Shown one piece after another: positions 1 to 57,556 of a stretch of DNA of 64,000 bases (position 1 is the first letter of the stretch; the number at the start of each line of letters is the position of its first letter). This DNA comes from Candidatus Mediterraneibacter faecavium. Its GTDB lineage: Bacteria; Bacillota; Clostridia; Lachnospirales; Lachnospiraceae. Under the pieces are notes generated by a model. The model searched no databases, was not told the DNA's origin, and saw only the letters and a program-made list of their open reading frames with translations. The position numbers and the translations under genes were made by a program. The DNA lies in NCBI GenBank assembly GCA_019119995.1, contig DWVY01000003.1:1-64000 (forward strand), given 5' to 3'.

Positions 1-135
1 TTATTACTATCTCTTATGCCCTGTAACCGGAACCGGAAGCATCCTATCCCCACCTGTCCCGATAACGTGGATCAACATATTGTATCCGATTGATTTTCGG
101 ATGTTTTATTCGCGAAGTATCTCGCCGACAATCAC
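1..135 (-). repeat. Family A palindromic element, copy A1 (cut by window edge)
   Basis: This is the gene-proximal arm of the long inverted-repeat element described in full at 22138-22501. Read on the minus strand it begins 8 nt after the spoIVA stop codon with the terminal repeat at 113-135 (starts GTGATTGTCGGCGAGATAC) and continues to the foot of the core hairpin (ACTATCTCT at 7-15), where the window ends. It matches the proximal arms of A2, A3 and A4 over about 120 bp. The distal arm lies outside the window. Confidence 0.8.
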
Positions 136-143
136 GAATCCCC

Positions 144-20728: not shown

Positions 20729-20843
20729 GCGATCACCCTTTTCAAAATTTTAGTATTTCATAATATAGTTGATTGATTGCCTCTATGTGAAGCCGCCTTT
20801 TTATAGTATAATATGGTAGAAATTGATATACAAGGAGATTCTT

Positions 20844-22133
20844 ATGAAAATTGTCGGACTGATCACTGAATATAATCCGTTCCACAACGGCCACCTTCAC
20901 CACATAAAAGAAGCCCTGCGCATCACCGGTGCGGACGCCGCCATCGTGGTCATGAGCGGGGACTATGTGCAGAGAGGCGTTCCCGCTGTCATGCCAAAGA
21001 GGCTGCGCGCCGAGATGGCTTTAAAATGCGGCGCGGCCGCTGTATTTGAGCTGCCGGTCTGCTACGCATCCGGGAGCGCGGAATATTTTGCCACGGGCGC
21101 CGTATCTCTTCTCGATCAGCTGGGGATCGTGGACAGCCTCTGCTTCGGCAGCGAATGCAATGACATTGACGCGCTCAGCCGGATCGCCGGCATTCTCCTG
21201 GCTGAGCCTGCAAAATACCGCAGTCTCCTGAAAAGCCACTTGAAAAACGGTCAGTCTTATCCTGCCGCACGCATGCGTGCCGTCTCAGAATATCTGGGCG
21301 CATCGTCCTGCGTTTCAGTGCTTAACGATCCGAACAACATCCTCGGGATCGAATATCTGAAAGCCCTGAAAAAACTCGAAAGCCCGATCAAACCCTATAC
21401 GATCAGAAGAGTCGGATCCCATTACCATGACCGGGAGCTCTCCGGTGAGCACTTAAGTTCCGCATCTGCCATCCGGTCCCTTTTAGCCTACTCCGGATCC
21501 GCGCTGCAGACAGACCGCTTTGGCGGCACTTTTGAAGACTTATCCCTCTCCGGCATCTTAAATGAACTGGAGGGGCAAGTTCCTTCCTGCTGTCTGGAAC
21601 TGTTAAAAGACTATCACAGAGTCTCGTATCCGGTGTACCAGAATGATTTCTCGCTTATTTTGAAATATAAGCTCCTGAACAAACGTCCGGAAAGCCTGCT
21701 CCGCTACATGGATGTATCAGAAGAACTTGCAAACCGGATCTGCGGACAGCTTGATAATTATTTTAACTACAAACAATTCTGCGAACTGCTGAAAACAAGG
21801 GAGACCACACAGACCCGTATCAACCGGGCACTCCTCCACATTATGCTGGGGATCAAAAAGCAGGATGTCTCAGAATATATAAACAGCGGGTATCACAGTT
21901 ACGCCCGCCTGCTCGGCGTCAGAAAAGACAAAGAGAAACTATTGTCCCGCATCGCAAAAGCAGGCTCACTGACACTGCTCACGCGGCTTACAGACAGCGA
22001 CAGCCTTCCCGCCGCCGGCAGAAAAATGCTCCGGAACGATATCCTCGCATCCAACCTGTATACATCCGTCGTGACAGATAAATACAAGACAGCATATCAA
22101 AATGAATATAAGCAGAGGCTCCTCAAAATATAA
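20844..22133 (+). CDS. tmcAL: tRNA(Met) cytidine acetate ligase TmcAL
   Basis: The 429-residue protein matches the YlbM/TmcAL nucleotidyltransferase family, which makes N4-acetylcytidine at the wobble position of elongator tRNA-Met using acetate and ATP. The nucleotidyltransferase motif EYNPFHNGHLHH is at residues 8-19 and GSECND near 95. The start at 20844 is chosen for AGGAG 6 nt upstream. A -10 TATAAT is at 20807-20812. The stop codon is followed after 4 nt by palindromic element A2. The family needs acetate, made by the neighbouring pta-ackA pathway. Confidence 0.93.
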   Translation: MKIVGLITEYNPFHNGHLHHIKEALRITGADAAIVVMSGDYVQRGVPAVMPKRLRAEMALKCGAAAVFELPVCYASGSAEYFATGAVSLLDQLGIVDSLCFGSECNDIDALSRIAGILLAEPAKYRSLLKSHLKNGQSYPAARMRAVSEYLGASSCVSVLNDPNNILGIEYLKALKKLESPIKPYTIRRVGSHYHDRELSGEHLSSASAIRSLLAYSGSALQTDRFGGTFEDLSLSGILNELEGQVPSCCLELLKDYHRVSYPVYQNDFSLILKYKLLNKRPESLLRYMDVSEELANRICGQLDNYFNYKQFCELLKTRETTQTRINRALLHIMLGIKKQDVSEYINSGYHSYARLLGVRKDKEKLLSRIAKAGSLTLLTRLTDSDSLPAAGRKMLRNDILASNLYTSVVTDKYKTAYQNEYKQRLLKI

Positions 22134-22137
22134 AATT

Positions 22138-22501
22138 CGTGTTTGCCAGCGAGATACTTTCAATAAATCATCCGAAAATCAATCGGATACAGTGGATTGT
22201 TGACTCACGTATCCGGGATGGGCGGGGAGGAGATGCTTCCGGCTCCGGTTACGGAATATAAGATAAAGTAACAAACCTGTGATACAGCTAAAAACAATCA
22301 GGAAAATGAACAACTCGTTTCACTCAAACAATTTCATTTTCCTGATTAACGCTGCATCCCAGGTTTTAACTTTATCTAATATCCCTTTACAGTCACCGGC
22401 AGCATCTCCTCCCCGCCCATCCCGAAAGGTGCATCAAAGGGGGCTGTATCCGAATGATTTTCTACGTTCATCCAATCGGAAGTATCTCCCCGACAATCAC
22501 G
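22138..22501 (+). repeat. Family A palindromic element, copy A2
   Basis: A 364-bp giant imperfect hairpin begins 4 nt after the tmcAL stop. Its ends are inverted repeats (CGTGTTTGCCAGCGAGATAC... and its complement at 22477-22501). Next inward come long arms (conserved GGATACAG, GATGGGCGGGGAGGAGATGC and complement), then a 117-bp core hairpin at 22261-22377. The core pairs AGATAAAGT with ACTTTATCT, then AACCTG/CAGGTT, then AATCAGGAAAATGAA with its complement. No gene is present. It lacks a T-tract, so a simple terminator role is not evident. Confidence 0.85.
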
Positions 22502-22502
22502 G

Positions 22503-23071
22503 AATTAGATAAACCGAGTCGAAAGGGGAACTGTATCGGGGCGGATACCTGAAATCTTAGTTTGTAAAGTTCCGATCTCTTCGTGTTTGTCGAAAGGCTA
22601 ACGCCGCAGTAGAAGAAAGTATATTGATCGGATAAAGGACGCAGAAAAGGAGAATACTGCAACGCTGTGCCGACCCGCTCTGTCTCATCCAGTCGGTAAT
22701 CTTTCTTCTCACCGCCGCTTCATCTTTCAACAAACACTCATTAAAAGTTGGAAGAAGCCGGGACTTCACAAACTAAGATTTCAGGTATTCCACCCGATAT
22801 AGAAACCGGTAAATCGTGGGGCTGAGTCCAGACCGCGATGATTTCTGGTCCGCTTGATCAAACACTATCTGCCGTATGGTTCCATGTCAAGTCCTTGCCT
22901 GTAAACAGGTGCTCCGCAGGCTTGACATGGAACCATACGGCAGATATAAAACAAACAAGCGGAACCAGAAATCTCCATATCCGGAAACGGTTCACCAGCC
23001 AGTAATAATATTAGTTTCTACGACAGCGCCTTTGTCGACACAGCTCCCCCCTCGACTCGCTTTATCTAATT
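22503..23071. repeat. Element D: 569-bp palindromic element between A2 and A3
   Basis: It has terminal inverted repeats of about 32 bp (starting AATTAGATAAACCGAGTCGA and ending with its near complement) and contains two large hairpins. Hairpin 1 (22533-22801) has arms pairing TATCGGG...ACCTGAAATCTTAGTTTGT with its near-perfect complement at 22763-22801, plus an inner imperfect inverted repeat. Hairpin 2 (22839-22973) has a perfect 25-bp stem, 22867-22891 with 22921-22945, around a 29-nt loop, and an outer stem of GATTTCTGGT. No credible gene: open frames here are only palindrome arms. Confidence 0.8.
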
Positions 23072-23072
23072 T

Positions 23073-23433
23073 GTGATTGTCGGGAAGATACTTCCGATTG
23101 GATGAACGAAGAAAAACAGCCGGATACAGCCCTATTGATAAACCTTCCGGATCAGACGGGATTGTAATGTGGACGGTGACTGTGGAAAGGGATTAGAGAT
23201 AGTTCAAGCCCGTGGTGCGGCGTTAATCCGGGAAAGGATGTTGTCTGAACGAAGTGAGTTCTTCCTTTCCCGGATTGCTTTTAGCCGTATCACGGGCTTG
23301 TTACTATCTCTTATGCCCTGTAACCGGAGCCGGAAACATTACAATCCCGCCTGATCCGGTTACGCATATCGATCCGCTGTATCCGGGTGATTTTCGAATC
23401 TTATCTCCAACGGCGTTCAATTCAACAAACACG
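23073..23433 (-). repeat. Family A palindromic element, copy A3
   Basis: A 361-bp element whose proximal end lies 3 nt after the icd stop codon. Its long arms match A2 in inverted orientation. The 117-bp core hairpin (23195-23311) pairs AGAGATAGT/ACTATCTCT, CAAGCCCGTG/CACGGGCTTG and AATCCGGGAAAGGA with its complement. The proximal terminal repeat is altered by extra bases compared with A1 and A4. Confidence 0.85.
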
Positions 23434-23436
23434 AAT

Positions 23437-24633
23437 TTACAGTCTCTTTGCGATTGCTTTGATAAACTGCTCGCTGTTTAACACGGTCGGATCCTCGATC
23501 GTTGTGATCAGTGCCAGGTCTTTTGTCATCTCGCCTGCCTCGATCGTATCGATGGTTGCTTTCTCCAGGCGGTCAGCGAATTCCATCAGTTCTTTATTGC
23601 CGTCCAGTTCACCGCGCTTACGGAGCGCGCCCGTCCACGCGAAGATCGTTGCCACGGAGTTTGTGGATGTCTCCTCGCCTTTTAAGTGTTTATAGTAATG
23701 GCGCTGTACTGTCCCGTGGGCTGCCTCGTACTCATAGTATCCTTCCGGGGATACGAGCACGGATGTCATCATTGCAAGGGAACCGAATGCGGAGGAGATC
23801 ATATCGCTCATCACATCGCCGTCGTAGTTCTTGCATGCCCAGATATATCCGCCCTGGGATTTCATCACTCGTGCCACCGCGTCATCGATCAGAGTGTAGA
23901 AATACTCGATCCCTGCTTCTTTGAACTTCTCATCGAATTCTGCATCGTAGATCTCCTGGAAAATATCTTTAAATGTATGGTCGTATTTTTTAGAGATCGT
24001 ATCTTTTGTAGCGAACCACAGATCCTGTTTCGTATCAAGTGCATAGGAGAAGCAGCTTCTTGCGAAACTCTCGATGGACTTGTTGAGATTGTGCATGCCC
24101 TGTACGATGCCCGGACCGTCGAAATTATGTACCAGTTCTTTTGTCTGGCTTCCGTCTTCCGCCGTGTACACAAGCTCCACTTTGCCGGCTCCCGGTATCT
24201 TCATCTCAGATCCCTTATAGACGTCACCGTATGCATGTCTTGCGATCGTGATCGGTTTCTTCCAGTTTTTCACACATGGTTCAATGCCTTTTACGACGAT
24301 CGGGGCACGGAATACTGTTCCGTCAAGGATCGCACGGATCGTTCCGTTCGGGCTCTTCCACATCTCTTTCAAGTTGTACTCATCCATACGTGCGGCATTC
24401 GGTGTGATCGTTGCGCACTTTACGGCTACTTTGTATTTCTTTGTAGCCATCGCCGAATCTACCGTAACCTGGTCATTTGTCTCATTTCTGTGCTCAAGCC
24501 CCAGATCATAGTACTCTGTCTTAAGATCAATATACGGAATGAGCAGCTCATCCTTGATCATCTTCCAGAGAATCCTTGTCATCTCGTCTCCGTCCATCTC
24601 TACCAGTGGTGTTGTCATCTTAATCTTCGCCAT
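23437..24633 (-). CDS. icd: NADP-dependent isocitrate dehydrogenase (eukaryotic-type)
   Basis: The 398-residue enzyme decarboxylates isocitrate to 2-oxoglutarate for glutamate synthesis. It resembles the homodimeric eukaryotic-type (subfamily II) NADP-IDH, not the E. coli type: [17 protein letters not shown] at the N terminus, [16 protein letters not shown], and [10 protein letters not shown] near residue 305. AGGAGG lies 8 nt before the ATG. It is the last gene of a probable operon with Re-type citrate synthase and a GntR regulator, so the operon runs from oxaloacetate and acetyl-CoA towards 2-oxoglutarate; aconitase is not in the window. Confidence 0.95.
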
Positions 24634-41867: not shown

Positions 41868-42024
41868 CAGTTCAGCCGCGCCATTCGGAAATCCGCACTC
41901 CGTGCTTCCCGCGGCTGCCGCCGCTGATTTCCTCATAGGCAGGCGCTCACCCCATGGTGTGGCGCGCTCACAAAACCATGCCAGCATGGTTTCTGCTCCC
42001 GTCCGCGCCATGGCTGAACTGTTA
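41868..42024. repeat. Family B palindromic element, copy B1 (between rpoD and trmK)
   Basis: The element fills the gap after rpoD: its right terminal repeat (GGCTGAACTGTTA) includes the rpoD stop codon, and its left end (CAGTTCAGCC) lies 23 nt before the trmK ATG. The left half forms a stem GGAAATC/GATTTCC (41887-41893 with 41926-41932) enclosing two mini-hairpins, GCAC-TCC-GTGC and GCGG-CTG-CCGC. The right half has hairpins CATGGT/ACCATG and CCATG-CCAG-CATGG. Compare B2 at 54478. Confidence 0.8.
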
Positions 42025-49415: not shown

Positions 49416-49499
49416 TGCGGAAGATGGGACTTGAACCCACACGACACGAATGTCACAAGATCCTTAGTCTTGCTCGTCTGCCAGTTCCGACACTTCCGC
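49416..49499 (-). tRNA. tRNA-Leu (anticodon AAG)
   Basis: An 84-nt class II tRNA: acceptor GCGGAAG with CTTCCGC and discriminator A; anticodon stem CAAGA/TCTTG around the loop CTAAGGA, giving anticodon AAG (reads CUU); a long variable arm; and the T-arm GTGGGTTCAAGTCCCAT. CCA is not encoded. Leucine identity fits the long variable arm and A73. Confidence 0.93.
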
Positions 49500-49659: not shown

Positions 49660-49797
49660 GCGGGCTTTCGCCCCAGCCATGTCAGTTCGATTCCGCTTCG
49701 CTCCATCTCACTGCGGGCTTTCGCCCTATACAGGAAAAGAGTGGCGGTTGGTTTTGTGCGAGCACAACCAACCGCCACTCTTTTCCTGTGCATGGCT
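49660..49797 (-). repeat. Element C: hairpin cluster after trpB2
   Basis: Starting 12 nt after the trpB2 stop codon, the element has outer repeats CATGGCT/AGCCATG (49791-49797 with 49675-49681) and a near-perfect 28-bp hairpin (49730-49789). The hairpin tip TGTGCGAGCACA resembles the tip of B2. Two identical copies of GCGGGCTTTCGCCC (49660-49673 and 49713-49726) are each a mini-hairpin. The arrangement of a long hairpin plus small hairpins resembles family B. Confidence 0.7.
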
Positions 49798-54477: not shown

Positions 54478-54641
54478 GTAACAGTTCAGCCCGCGCCATT
54501 CGTAAAACCGCACTTCGTGCTTATTGCGGCTGCCGCCGCTGTTTTACTCATTGACAGGCGCTCATCTCATCTGAATGTCAGTGAACGGATTCTTATGCGA
54601 GCATAAATCCGTTCACTGACATCAGATGGCTGAACTGTTAC
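54478..54641. repeat. Family B palindromic element, copy B2 (infC promoter / SNF gene gap)
   Basis: A 164-bp element with perfect 14-bp terminal inverted repeats GTAACAGTTCAGCC and GGCTGAACTGTTAC. The left half has a stem GTAAAAC/GTTTTAC (54502-54508 with 54541-54547) enclosing GCAC-TTC-GTGC and GCGG-CTG-CCGC. The right half is one long hairpin (54568-54628) with the tip ATGCGAGCAT. The left-half stem has the same span (46 nt) as in B1 with two compensatory pair changes. Confidence 0.85.
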
Positions 54642-54812
54642 CAAAACTTTATTCCAACTTTATTCCGCACTTCATTCCATGCTATAATACTGCTGTTGCA
54701 GCTCCTGTATCCGGGCTGCCGCAAGCAGCGGAAACATCGGGAACGGTGGAAAAACAGCGAAAACAGCAGAAGCAATAAAAATAACAGAAATAACAGGAAA
54801 GAGAGATCATCT

Positions 54813-56168
54813 ATGAGTTTCAAAAATTCTACAAGTTCCAAAACTATAGTATCAGAAGATAAATTTAATAACAAGTGGGGATTTGTCATCTCCTGCATCG
54901 GAAGCTCGGTGGGCATGGCAAATATATGGATGTTCCCGTACCGGATCGGCGAATTCGGAGGCGCGGCATTCCTGATCCCGTATATCATCTTTGTCCTGCT
55001 CATCGGATTCACCGGCGTGATCGGCGAGATGGCGTTCGGGCGTGCCATGCATTCAGGTCCCCTCGGCGCATTTAAAAAGGCTTTCGACATGAAAAGCCCT
55101 CAGAAAAAATCCCGCATCGGAACAGTCATCGGCCTGATTCCCGTTATCGGTTCCCTGGGCATTGCCATCGGCTACAGTGTGATCATCGGCTGGATCTTAA
55201 AGTTCCTTGCCGATTCTGTCACCGGGGCAATTATCAATGACGAGGATCCCGCACAGGTATTCGGCGTGCTTTCCCGGGACTTCGGAAGTATCCCGTGGCA
55301 TCTGCTGGGACTTATACTCGCCCTGATCTGCACGTCTTTCGGCATTGCCCGGGGCATTGAAAAGGTAAACCGGATCATGATGCCCGCATTTTTTGTTCTG
55401 TTCCTTTTTCTTGCAGTAAGGGTTGCCTTCCTTGACGGAGCGGCAGAGGGCTATGCATATCTGTTCAAACCGGACTGGTCAGCTATGACAAACCCGCAGA
55501 CCTGGGTGTACGCTATGGGACAGGCATTCTTCTCTCTGTCTGTCGCCGGCAGCGGAACCGTTGTATACGGAAGTTATCTGAGATCAGACGTCGATATTGT
55601 CAGCAGCGCGAAATACGTGGCGTTCTTTGACACCCTTGCCGCACTGCTTGCAGGGCTTGTCATTATTCCCGCCGTATTTGCCTACGGCATGGAACCGAAT
55701 TCCGGTCCGGGGCTGCTCTTTATCACAATTCCCGCTGTGATCCGGAGCATACCTTTCGGACAGGTATTTGCCATCCTTTTCTTCCTTGCAGTGCTCTTTG
55801 CAGGAGCCACTTCTCTTGTCAACCTGCTGGAAAGCCCGGTAGAAGCCCTGCAGTCCAGATTCGGATGGTCCAGGCGCTCCGCCCTCATCCTCGTAGGAGC
55901 CGTAACTGCAGCCGCCGGACTCTTTGTGGAAGGCAGCCTTTTAAGCCCGTGGATGGACACCATCTCCATCTATGTCATCCCGCTGGGCGCGCTGCTCGCA
56001 GGCATCACCATGTTCTGGGTCTGCGGAAAGACCTTCGCGCGCAACGCCGTTCAGCTGGGGCGCAGACGCACCCTGGGGCGGTGGTTCGAGCCCATGACCA
56101 GGTACGTCTTCTGCGGCGTGGCACTCGTGGTGTATGTACTCGGGATCTTCTTTGGGGGCATAGGGTGA
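54813..56168 (+). CDS. Sodium-dependent transporter, SNF (neurotransmitter:sodium symporter) family
   Basis: The 451-residue membrane protein has 11-12 predicted helices and SNF blocks: KWGFVISCIGSSVGMANIW at helix 1 (residues about 21-39), GVIGEMAFGRAM, and AFFSLSVAGSGTVVYGSYL near helix 6. Bacterial members (LeuT relatives) import amino acids with Na+. The frame is open upstream, but AGAGAGAT 7 nt before 54813 and the family N terminus fix the start. TATAAT is at 54682-54687. Substrate unknown. Confidence 0.9.
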   Translation: MSFKNSTSSKTIVSEDKFNNKWGFVISCIGSSVGMANIWMFPYRIGEFGGAAFLIPYIIFVLLIGFTGVIGEMAFGRAMHSGPLGAFKKAFDMKSPQKKSRIGTVIGLIPVIGSLGIAIGYSVIIGWILKFLADSVTGAIINDEDPAQVFGVLSRDFGSIPWHLLGLILALICTSFGIARGIEKVNRIMMPAFFVLFLFLAVRVAFLDGAAEGYAYLFKPDWSAMTNPQTWVYAMGQAFFSLSVAGSGTVVYGSYLRSDVDIVSSAKYVAFFDTLAALLAGLVIIPAVFAYGMEPNSGPGLLFITIPAVIRSIPFGQVFAILFFLAVLFAGATSLVNLLESPVEALQSRFGWSRRSALILVGAVTAAAGLFVEGSLLSPWMDTISIYVIPLGALLAGITMFWVCGKTFARNAVQLGRRRTLGRWFEPMTRYVFCGVALVVYVLGIFFGGIG

Positions 56169-56262
56169 ATTCGTGCTTATCGTACCGGCTGCAATTAGAA
56201 AACTTTCCCAAAGCAGCCAATCAGCGAATGAATGACTCACGTATTCGCGGACAGAGGGAGAT
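56169..56262 (+). repeat. Truncated family A element, copy A5
   Basis: Directly after the SNF transporter stop codon comes ATTCGTG, as in the other copies, and then AATGACTCACGTATTCGCGG (56229-56248), which matches the proximal arm of A2. Core and distal arm are missing. It runs into the distal end of A4. Confidence 0.6.
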
Positions 56263-56268
56263 TGATTC

Positions 56269-56636
56269 CGTGATTGTCGGGGAGATACTTCCCGTTGGAT
56301 GAACGTAGAAAATCAGACGGATACAGCCCCTTTGATGCATCTTTCGGGACGGACGGGGAGAGGATGCTGATGGTGACTGTGAAAGGGGATTAGAGATAGT
56401 TCAAGCCCGTGGTGCGGCGTTAATCCGGGAAAGGATGTTGTTTGAACGAAGTGAGTTCTTCCTTTCCCGGATTGCTTTTAGCCGTATCATGGGCTTGTTA
56501 CTATCTCTTATGCCCTGTAACCGGAGCCGGAAGCATCCCCTCCCGCCCGTCCCGGATACGTGAGTCAATATACTGTATCCGAGTGATTTGCGGATGTTTC
56601 ATGTTCTATCGCGAAGTATCTTGCAGACAAACACAA
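56269..56636 (-). repeat. Family A palindromic element, copy A4
   Basis: A complete 368-bp element whose proximal end lies about 3 nt after the degV stop codon. The distal end starts CGTGATTGTCGGGGAGATAC (56269). The 117-bp core hairpin (56392-56508) is nearly identical to that of A3. Together with A5 it fills the 471-nt gap between the converging SNF transporter and degV genes. Confidence 0.85.
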
Positions 56637-56639
56637 ATA

Positions 56640-57497
56640 TCACACTTTCTTCATGCATGTCACTGCCATCGCCCCCGGCCCGATATGGCACGCCACGCTC
56701 AGCGACAACGGGCCTTCTATTATTTCATATCCGGGGAACCGGTCCATGATCTCCTGCTTCCACTCCTGTGCTTCTTCTTTGGAACAGGTATATGCCATTC
56801 CCAATATCATCTTGTCTTTCACATCGGCAAAGCGTTCGTTCAGGTCTTTTTCAATGGCATTTAACATCGTCTTCTTGGCTGCTTTCCAACCGCGTACTTT
56901 CGCAAATGCATCCAGTTTTTCTCCCTGGATCTGGAGTACGGGTTTCAGGTTCAGCACAGTTCCGATGGCTGCGGCAGCCGGTGTGACCCTGCCGCCTTTT
57001 TTCAGGTACTTCAGCGTGTCTACTGTAATGTAGATGCTGGCCTGGAGTTTTTCTCTCTCCAGCACTTCTTTGATCTCTGCCGCGGATTTGCCCTGATCGC
57101 GCAGGTACATTGCGTCATACACAGACTGTTCCTGTGTGACGGAGATCCTCTGATTATCGACCACCTGTACCCTGCCTTTATACTCAGCCGCAATAGACAG
57201 GGCTGTAGCGCAGGTGCTGCTCAGTCCGCTGGACATCGGGATGCAGACGATCTCATCGTATTCTTTCAGGACTTTCTCCCACAGCTCCATCACATTTCCC
57301 GGAGAGGGCTGAGAGGTAGAGATATCCGAGTCGGCTCCCAGTTTCTCATAGAACTGCTCCTGTGTCAGCGTGATATCTTCATAATATATTTCTCCGTCGA
57401 TGAAAAAGGGCATAGGGAGTACATAGATCCCGAGTTCTTTTCCCCGTTTCTGCGTAATTCCGCTGTTGCTGTCAGTAACGATAGCAATTTTACTCAT
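56640..57497 (-). CDS. DegV family fatty-acid-binding protein
   Basis: The 285-residue protein starts with IAIVTDSNSG and has the DegV two-domain fold with ISTSQPSPG near residue 88 and SSGLSSTC near 115. DegV/FakB proteins bind fatty acids and can present them to a FakA kinase; no fakA gene is visible here. AGGAG lies 8 nt before the ATG at 57497. It is the last gene of the polA-coaE-MBL-ACT-PFL series; element A4 follows its stop codon. Confidence 0.9.
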   Translation of the reverse strand: MSKIAIVTDSNSGITQKRGKELGIYVLPMPFFIDGEIYYEDITLTQEQFYEKLGADSDISTSQPSPGNVMELWEKVLKEYDEIVCIPMSSGLSSTCATALSIAAEYKGRVQVVDNQRISVTQEQSVYDAMYLRDQGKSAAEIKEVLEREKLQASIYITVDTLKYLKKGGRVTPAAAAIGTVLNLKPVLQIQGEKLDAFAKVRGWKAAKKTMLNAIEKDLNERFADVKDKMILGMAYTCSKEEAQEWKQEIMDRFPGYEIIEGPLSLSVACHIGPGAMAVTCMKKV

Positions 57498-57556
57498 TTC
57501 TTCTCTCCTGATTCTCAAGGCTGTTTTCTATAAACTGTCCTTTTGTTCTGATAACT

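Follow-up and report, generated by a model that had tools for sequence, protein, structure and literature searches.

Arrays of palindromic repeats abut native stop codons in one orientation in Candidatus Mediterraneibacter faecavium and related species

In E. coli, REPs lying within ~15 nt of a stop codon affect translation, and to our knowledge the cause of the clustering of REP-like repeats at gene 3′ ends is an open question. The same question is raised by the first 64,000 nucleotides of contig DWVY01000003.1 of Candidatus Mediterraneibacter faecavium (assembly GCA_019119995.1), hereafter the window, where long near-palindromic repeats directly follow the stop codons of several genes. An earlier note, made from the sequence alone, described four copies of one repeat family, A1 to A4, with the same arm always turned toward the stop codon of the preceding gene; all four exist, and the right arm of each points to the stop of spoIVA, tmcAL, icd and degV, respectively. 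As set out below, the position of these repeats is exact, their orientation and outer end are shared, the stop codons are native, and the arrangement recurs across the genus with different contents. The features concerned are as follows.

1 to 139 (family A match 3-135), plus strand: A1, a family A copy truncated by the contig end, right part only
128-139, minus strand: end motif of A1, 4 nt past the spoIVA stop codon
144 to 1616, minus strand: spoIVA, 490 aa (family search)
20823 to 22133, plus strand: nucleotidyltransferase gene, the tmcAL of the earlier note (HIGH_NTase1, PRK13670)
22139 to 22501, minus strand: A2, a family A copy; its motif at 22135-22146 begins 1 nt past the tmcAL stop codon
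22502 to 23072, no strand assigned: middle of the tmcAL-icd array, with more palindromic repeats and an internal motif at 22579-22590 (inverted repeats)
23073 to 23415, plus strand: A3, a family A copy whose right end differs (repeat search)
23425 to 23436, minus strand: end motif ATTCGTGTTTGT, 0 nt past the icd stop codon (motif tabulation)
23437 to 24633, minus strand: icd, NADP-dependent isocitrate dehydrogenase (domain and family searches)
54696 to 56168, plus strand: SNF-type sodium symporter gene, convergent with degV (Pfam SNF)
56169 to 56268, plus strand: truncated copy of the sister family F, starting ATTCGTGCTTAT directly past the SNF stop codon
56269 to 56636, plus strand: A4, a full family A copy, right arm toward degV (repeat search, fold, genome copies)
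56627 to 56638, minus strand: end motif of A4, ATTTGTGTTTGT, 1 nt past the degV stop codon (motif tabulation)
56640 to 57518, minus strand: degV, stop codon at 56640-56642 (Pfam DegV)

The family A unit is ~366 nt long and matches its own inverted sequence as a near-palindrome, so that terminal inverted repeats are present in an element that is near-palindromic as a whole. The A4 stretch (56265-56640) has a predicted RNA minimum free energy of -194.4 kcal/mol, whereas shuffled sequences average -114.4. A3 matches family A only to A position 345, and its last stretch toward icd differs. The copy behind the SNF gene, taken at first for a truncated A copy (A5), proved to belong to another family: 56169-56268 is 91-93% identical to F copies at two other loci of the set (L248 and L254) and matches A4 over 20 nt only. 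A search of the whole window against Rfam 15 at gathering score returned a single match, a tRNA, and none in the repeats, and a structured RNA family was therefore dropped as the identity of A. The window also holds an 80 nt direct repeat outside family A, with two 85% identical copies at 41876-41955 and 54491-54570, and a hairpin with 34 nt arms, 88% complementary, at 49723-49796 near the tRNA gene at 49416-49499.

The host assembly is a 2.84 Mb draft in 66 contigs and contains at least about 40 copies of family A (41 places among the matches listed), a lower bound, as 40 of 70 candidates were scored and A1 lies outside that list. Many contigs (e.g. C10, C12, C39, C48, C61, C62 and C64) start or stop within A copies; the repeats therefore probably break up the assembly, leaving the inside of arrays hidden. 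Family A was matched in 10 of 41 genomes searched, host included, all of one genus; across the order, 3 of 295 genomes gave a match, namely the host and two genomes with core pieces of 28-63 nt only. Identity of the host SpoIVA is 94% with the protein of Candidatus Mediterraneibacter faecipullorum and 95% with that of an uncultured Lachnoclostridium MAG, which puts the host in the Mediterraneibacter group.

Read from the gene side, the constant outer edge of the repeats is the stop codon followed by ATTCGTGTTTG, and the outer edge of A is thus the motif ATTCGTGTTTG(T) rather than the final base of A. Measured to this motif, the distances for A1 to A4 are 4, 1, 0 and 1 nt; adjacency to the stop codon, as first described, was borne out. 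The 11 letters of ATTCGTGTTTG open several repeat families with different bodies. Genome-wide, ATTCGTGTTTGT with at most one mismatch was found at 78 places, against 5 for the reversed control, and at 53 of the 78 the motif starts -1 to 7 nt past a coding stop (codon score >=10; genes for stop distances and gap statistics were called by our own script). The chance expectation for this oriented position is 0.37% over the whole window or 2.7% in intergenic sequence only, in agreement with the earlier view that the position bias is unlike random insertion. The mode, with 26 of these 53 places, is exactly 0 nt from the scored stop; none of the 78 lies 8-30 nt past a scored coding stop, and in none does the opposite side of the motif come within 20 nt of a stop codon. 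When the codon-score filter was omitted, 56 of the 78 places fell -1 to 7 nt past the stop of an open frame. The remaining 25 places comprise three that are stop-adjacent but whose gene is below score (L021 twice, L255), three internal left ends of A (L017, L061, L185), the internal motif at window position 22579, and 18 further places, some of which resemble chance matches. By a rough string classification, with two strings placed by eye and with B to F as our own labels, the 53 stop-adjacent places are assigned to A (26), D (10), E-like (7), C (4), B (3) and F (3).

The arms of family A gave the same picture. In a tally over five genomes, which excluded three duplicate loci, matches scoring <100 and ends with <250 nt of flank, and in which distances were taken to the letter that follows ATTC, right ends were located -3 to 12 nt from a scored coding stop in 40 of 54 cases (24/32, 8/10, 6/9, 2/2 and 0/1 per genome), whereas left ends faced a stop in 3 of 46 cases, all three being single A copies that fill a convergent gap from stop to stop. 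Right ends fell outside this range in 14 cases. In four of them, at L005 (beside glyA), at L021 (two cases) and at L067 (a truncated copy behind spoIVA), the adjoining gene failed the score or the extrapolation; one other lies at -4, and the rest have no scored gene within reach. Tabulating the genomic copies by stop distance and orientation, the check proposed with the first description, thus yielded a strong one-orientation excess, sharper than originally stated, and the rule that the same arm faces the gene is near-constant. The spoIVA-side copies stand 4 nt from the stop, behind GGGG. By eye, AATT-like letters occur on both flanks of many arrays, yet these are part of the end motif.

The stop codons beside the repeats are those of the genes themselves. 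Usage of TAA, TGA and TAG is 28, 16 and 9 at the repeats and 25, 14 and 9 in 48 window genes. Of 80 SpoIVA orthologs, 77 count 490 codons and one counts 491; the two others, matched from residue 3 onward, count 488. Past the stop these orthologs carry different elements or none. Likewise, DegV is 292 aa long in 30 of 30 loci, GlyA 418 in all 27 countable of 30 loci (in the other three the match began before the start codon) and TrxB 307-310 in 30 of 30, with or without a repeat behind the gene. Stop codons supplied by the elements were rejected on these grounds of usage and protein length.

The same gene ends were then compared across the genus, with 58 genomes searched and 30 loci read per gene for four genes. 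Depending on the species, spoIVA, glyA, trxB, degV and icd are followed by A, by other families, by a terminator-like hairpin (by eye) or by almost nothing, and the other families at these gene ends carry a similar end, e.g. AATCTGGATTTG or ATTCGGATTTG. The pairs degV-SNF, icd-tmcAL and trxB-DUF are convergent in many species. The degV-SNF pair is present in 21 of 30 loci, with 13 gaps of 426-1233 nt, four of 68-88 nt and single gaps of 6, 6, 16 and 29 nt; in the 13 long gaps the end motif was seen by eye at both stops in nine, at one stop in three and at neither in one. The icd-tmcAL pair, present in 17 of 30 loci, has 10 gaps of 193-1303 nt, four of 51-127 nt and others of 8, 0 and 0 nt, where a gap of 0 nt may conceal a gene overlap. 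For trxB-DUF (13 of 30 loci), seven gaps measure 268-795 nt and the others 32, 33, 43, 87, 165 and 179 nt, and most arrays leave 0 nt at both stops. Long convergent gaps are thus mostly arrays running from stop to stop. Behind spoIVA, array-free species have a short stretch before the next promoter-like sequence, a space that arrays occupy at L096 and L098 (by eye). At glyA-rplY (L256, G000:C38) the two genes are convergent neighbours in the host alone among 30 glyA loci, with at most 1.5 kb past each gene examined and some contigs ending sooner, and an array lies at the junction, which suggests a rearrangement at arrays. As a general account of the convergent pairs, rearrangement was set aside; it is likely for glyA-rplY only, the three other pairs being widespread in species.

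Within this fixed frame the contents of the arrays change. Thirteen same-gene pairs of A copies were compared between species; they are partly non-independent, three of them coming from a single gene end in three species. Identity is 68-84% in 12 pairs and 94% in the other, and 84-97% for the gene ends. Ten of the 13 (68-84%) are less alike than the best own-genome paralog of either partner, although their gene ends are 86-93% identical; the other three do not conform to the turnover pattern (94%, 83% and 82%), two of them involving one genome, G020, with two copies in the set. Truncation is visible in the window, where 56169-56268 is the first 100 nt of F, cut at the start of A4, and the remaining F is absent. 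An array often has a different family at each of its outer ends, and arrays therefore look side by side rather than nested in one palindrome. Nesting of all repeats within one ancestral hairpin was accordingly disfavoured, given the side-by-side arrays and the few short hairpins.

We next consider whether the palindrome is kept as DNA or as a transcript fold. For the alignment of A, 52 of 102 listed matches were kept (loci of six genomes, score >=120, nearly full length), and the pairing test drew on 64 of 67 pairs common to both strands (128 of 131 in a second test). Paired positions were kept at 85.6%, against 75.7% in shuffles, and in the gene sense 436 cells held compensated pairs against 51 G-U, 83 A-C and 52 other; since the copies are related, these counts are non-independent. 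No excess of G-U over A-C was found at paired positions in the gene sense (51 vs 83; 249 vs 316 in counts of the same kind), A-C exceeding G-U in 28 copies and the reverse holding in 14. Among the 11 closest pairs of copies, one-sided changes were 58 A-C, 43 other and 32 G-U, and two-sided changes were 16, so that changes between the closest copies mostly break pairs. A guarded RNA fold in the gene-sense transcript is not supported by these data. Folding of the consensus is more favourable on the opposite strand (-148 kcal/mol) than in the gene sense (-100 kcal/mol), and an A-C tilt in the gene sense equals G-U on the opposite strand, which leaves room for a fold of that strand; the better opposite-strand fold and the A-C excess could hint at a role of an antisense transcript. 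We read the pairing data as a palindrome kept at the DNA level in a mobile lineage rather than a transcript fold guarded gene by gene.

The explanation that we favour, tentatively and at somewhat short of an even chance, is that mobile palindromic repeats form arrays in tight 3′ gaps, with the native stop as the outer end and turnover in the interior. The repeats would be non-coding, palindromic, mobile DNA resembling REP/BIME or MITE arrays, of several families with one end motif. Side-by-side arrays would be built in the narrow space that runs from a stop codon to whatever functional sequence follows, either a second stop or the promoter of the next gene, and the outer end would stay fixed at the native stop while the inside changes by gain, truncation and deletion. 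Copies would presumably arrive by transposition and survive mainly in tight 3′ gaps, as elsewhere they would probably break a gene or a promoter, and by separating abutting genes the arrays may become useful as insulators. At two window loci some other species have array-free gaps of 0-16 nt, and insertion into such a tight gap would also place both ends at stops. Against this explanation, array-free trxB-DUF gaps in some species are 33 and 43 nt, yet arrays there mostly leave 0 nt at both stops. The three same-gene pairs outside the turnover pattern, the hint of an antisense role and the fact that no transposase with these ends was noticed also weigh against it. Moreover, convergent gaps free of arrays were measured in a 464 kb sample of the host genome: the median of these 33 gaps is 81 nt, and just 4 are <=8 nt, overlaps included. 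Tight gaps alone therefore do not account for arrays shunning wider gaps. The tight gaps could also be scars of lost arrays and not targets.

The main rival of selection in tight gaps is targeted insertion, in which the mobilising machinery would recognise a stop-codon feature, such as DNA or RNA exposed at the end of translation, in one orientation. This we consider unlikely, though worth keeping in view. The mode at 0 nt, the empty interval from 8 to 30 nt and the lack of any wrong orientation among the 78 places are what it predicts, as are the arrays of most convergent pairs examined, which reach a stop at either end, and the occurrence of different families behind the same stop codons in several species. 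However, no transposase with these ends was noticed in passing, including between facing motif pairs within 2 kb (559 to ~1300 nt apart); by eye the flanks have little in common beyond the stop, the 4 nt offset behind GGGG at spoIVA does not fit, and at two loci the tight gaps of array-free species would explain the position more simply. Of the two readings offered by the earlier note, target choice at gene 3′ ends fits as a candidate, and a function in the 3′ untranslated region finds no support in a folded gene-sense transcript.

That second reading, an element serving as a transcript terminator or exonuclease barrier and held beside the stop by selection, appears quite unlikely. In its favour, the fold is very stable, and the degV-SNF and icd-tmcAL gaps are array-sized, 51-127 nt or almost nil depending on the species, but the same gene carries different contents between species, and neither the missing gene-sense G-U excess nor the mostly pair-breaking changes of the closest copies favour it. 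The element was said to end in no T-tract, and indeed 0 terminator-like sites were found across the A4 gap (56100-56760), where 0.7 were expected; in the tmcAL-icd array (22000-23600) there were 4 against 1.8 expected, so other array parts may differ from the A4 gap. It is improbable, too, that a short stop-to-stop hairpin with the end motif came first and that larger repeats entered it or its neighbours and inherited its position: the trxB-DUF gap of one genome (G069) is filled exactly by a perfect hairpin of 32 nt that bears these ends, and similar end motifs follow glyA in many species with the remainder differing (by eye), but exact short hairpins of the searched form occur in just 3 of 58 genomes, of which G069 alone was read in context, the outermost families of an array often differ, and the 32 nt form may have arisen by deletion. 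Just as improbable is a mobile superfamily of unrelated bodies with a common end and one orientation whose integration would be coupled to translation termination.

Several known systems resemble the favoured picture of mobile repeats held in tight 3′ gaps. For two Proteobacteria, P. entomophila and S. wittichii, Di Nocera et al. 2013 (PMC3733652) report that REPs located between convergent genes mostly lie <20 bp from both 3′ ends, and unidirectional REPs near the upstream gene. Like REPs and BIMEs, family A is palindromic, extragenic, present in many copies, grouped and near gene 3′ ends. In contrast, the REP unit is 20-40 nt, whereas A is ~366 nt and occurs in gaps of 193-1303 nt; the GTAG/CGTC tag of REPs is absent from the outer end of A, which carries ATTCGTGTTTG instead; and placement is more precise, with a mode of 0 nt from the stop. 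Bacterial MITEs (RUP, NEMIS, Bcr1, ERIC and others) are given as 70-300 bp in the same source (PMC3733652). A shares with them terminal inverted repeats, an apparently non-coding nature, foldability when transcribed and a location near genes, but is longer and has an exact stop-codon position; neither a parent insertion sequence nor a clear target duplication stood out by eye.

A RAYT-like gene of ~255 aa is present in the host (L231, G000:C41:1801-5130), and several genomes of the genus carry close relatives of it; the host gene matches Pfam Y1_Tnp at 31.4 bits (cut-off 23), and its best NCBIfam match, REP_Tyr_transpos, scores 68.1 bits, under the cut-off of 80. Where PMC2817692 deals with RAYT homologs, it reports none outside the lineages studied, mainly gammaproteobacteria. 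Unlike in RAYT systems, where the repeat's own palindrome flanks the gene, the host gene is flanked by another palindrome, GGGGACGTAGT, and by neither family A nor its end motif. The palindromes like those at its sides (19 in the loci examined) gave 20 stop distances from -2 to 199 nt with a median of 20, 16 of the 20 at 5-34, and the RAYT was rejected as the mover of A because its neighbouring palindromes differ in sequence and in stop distance.

A search of the open-licence literature for these repeats in Mediterraneibacter gave no earlier description. Large palindromic repeats of multiple families at stop codons sharpen the loose pattern known for short repeats elsewhere: the position is near base-exact, it is shared by several families, and across the genus a given gene end occurs both with and without an array, so that targeting, selection and insulation become separable by strain comparison and simple reporters.
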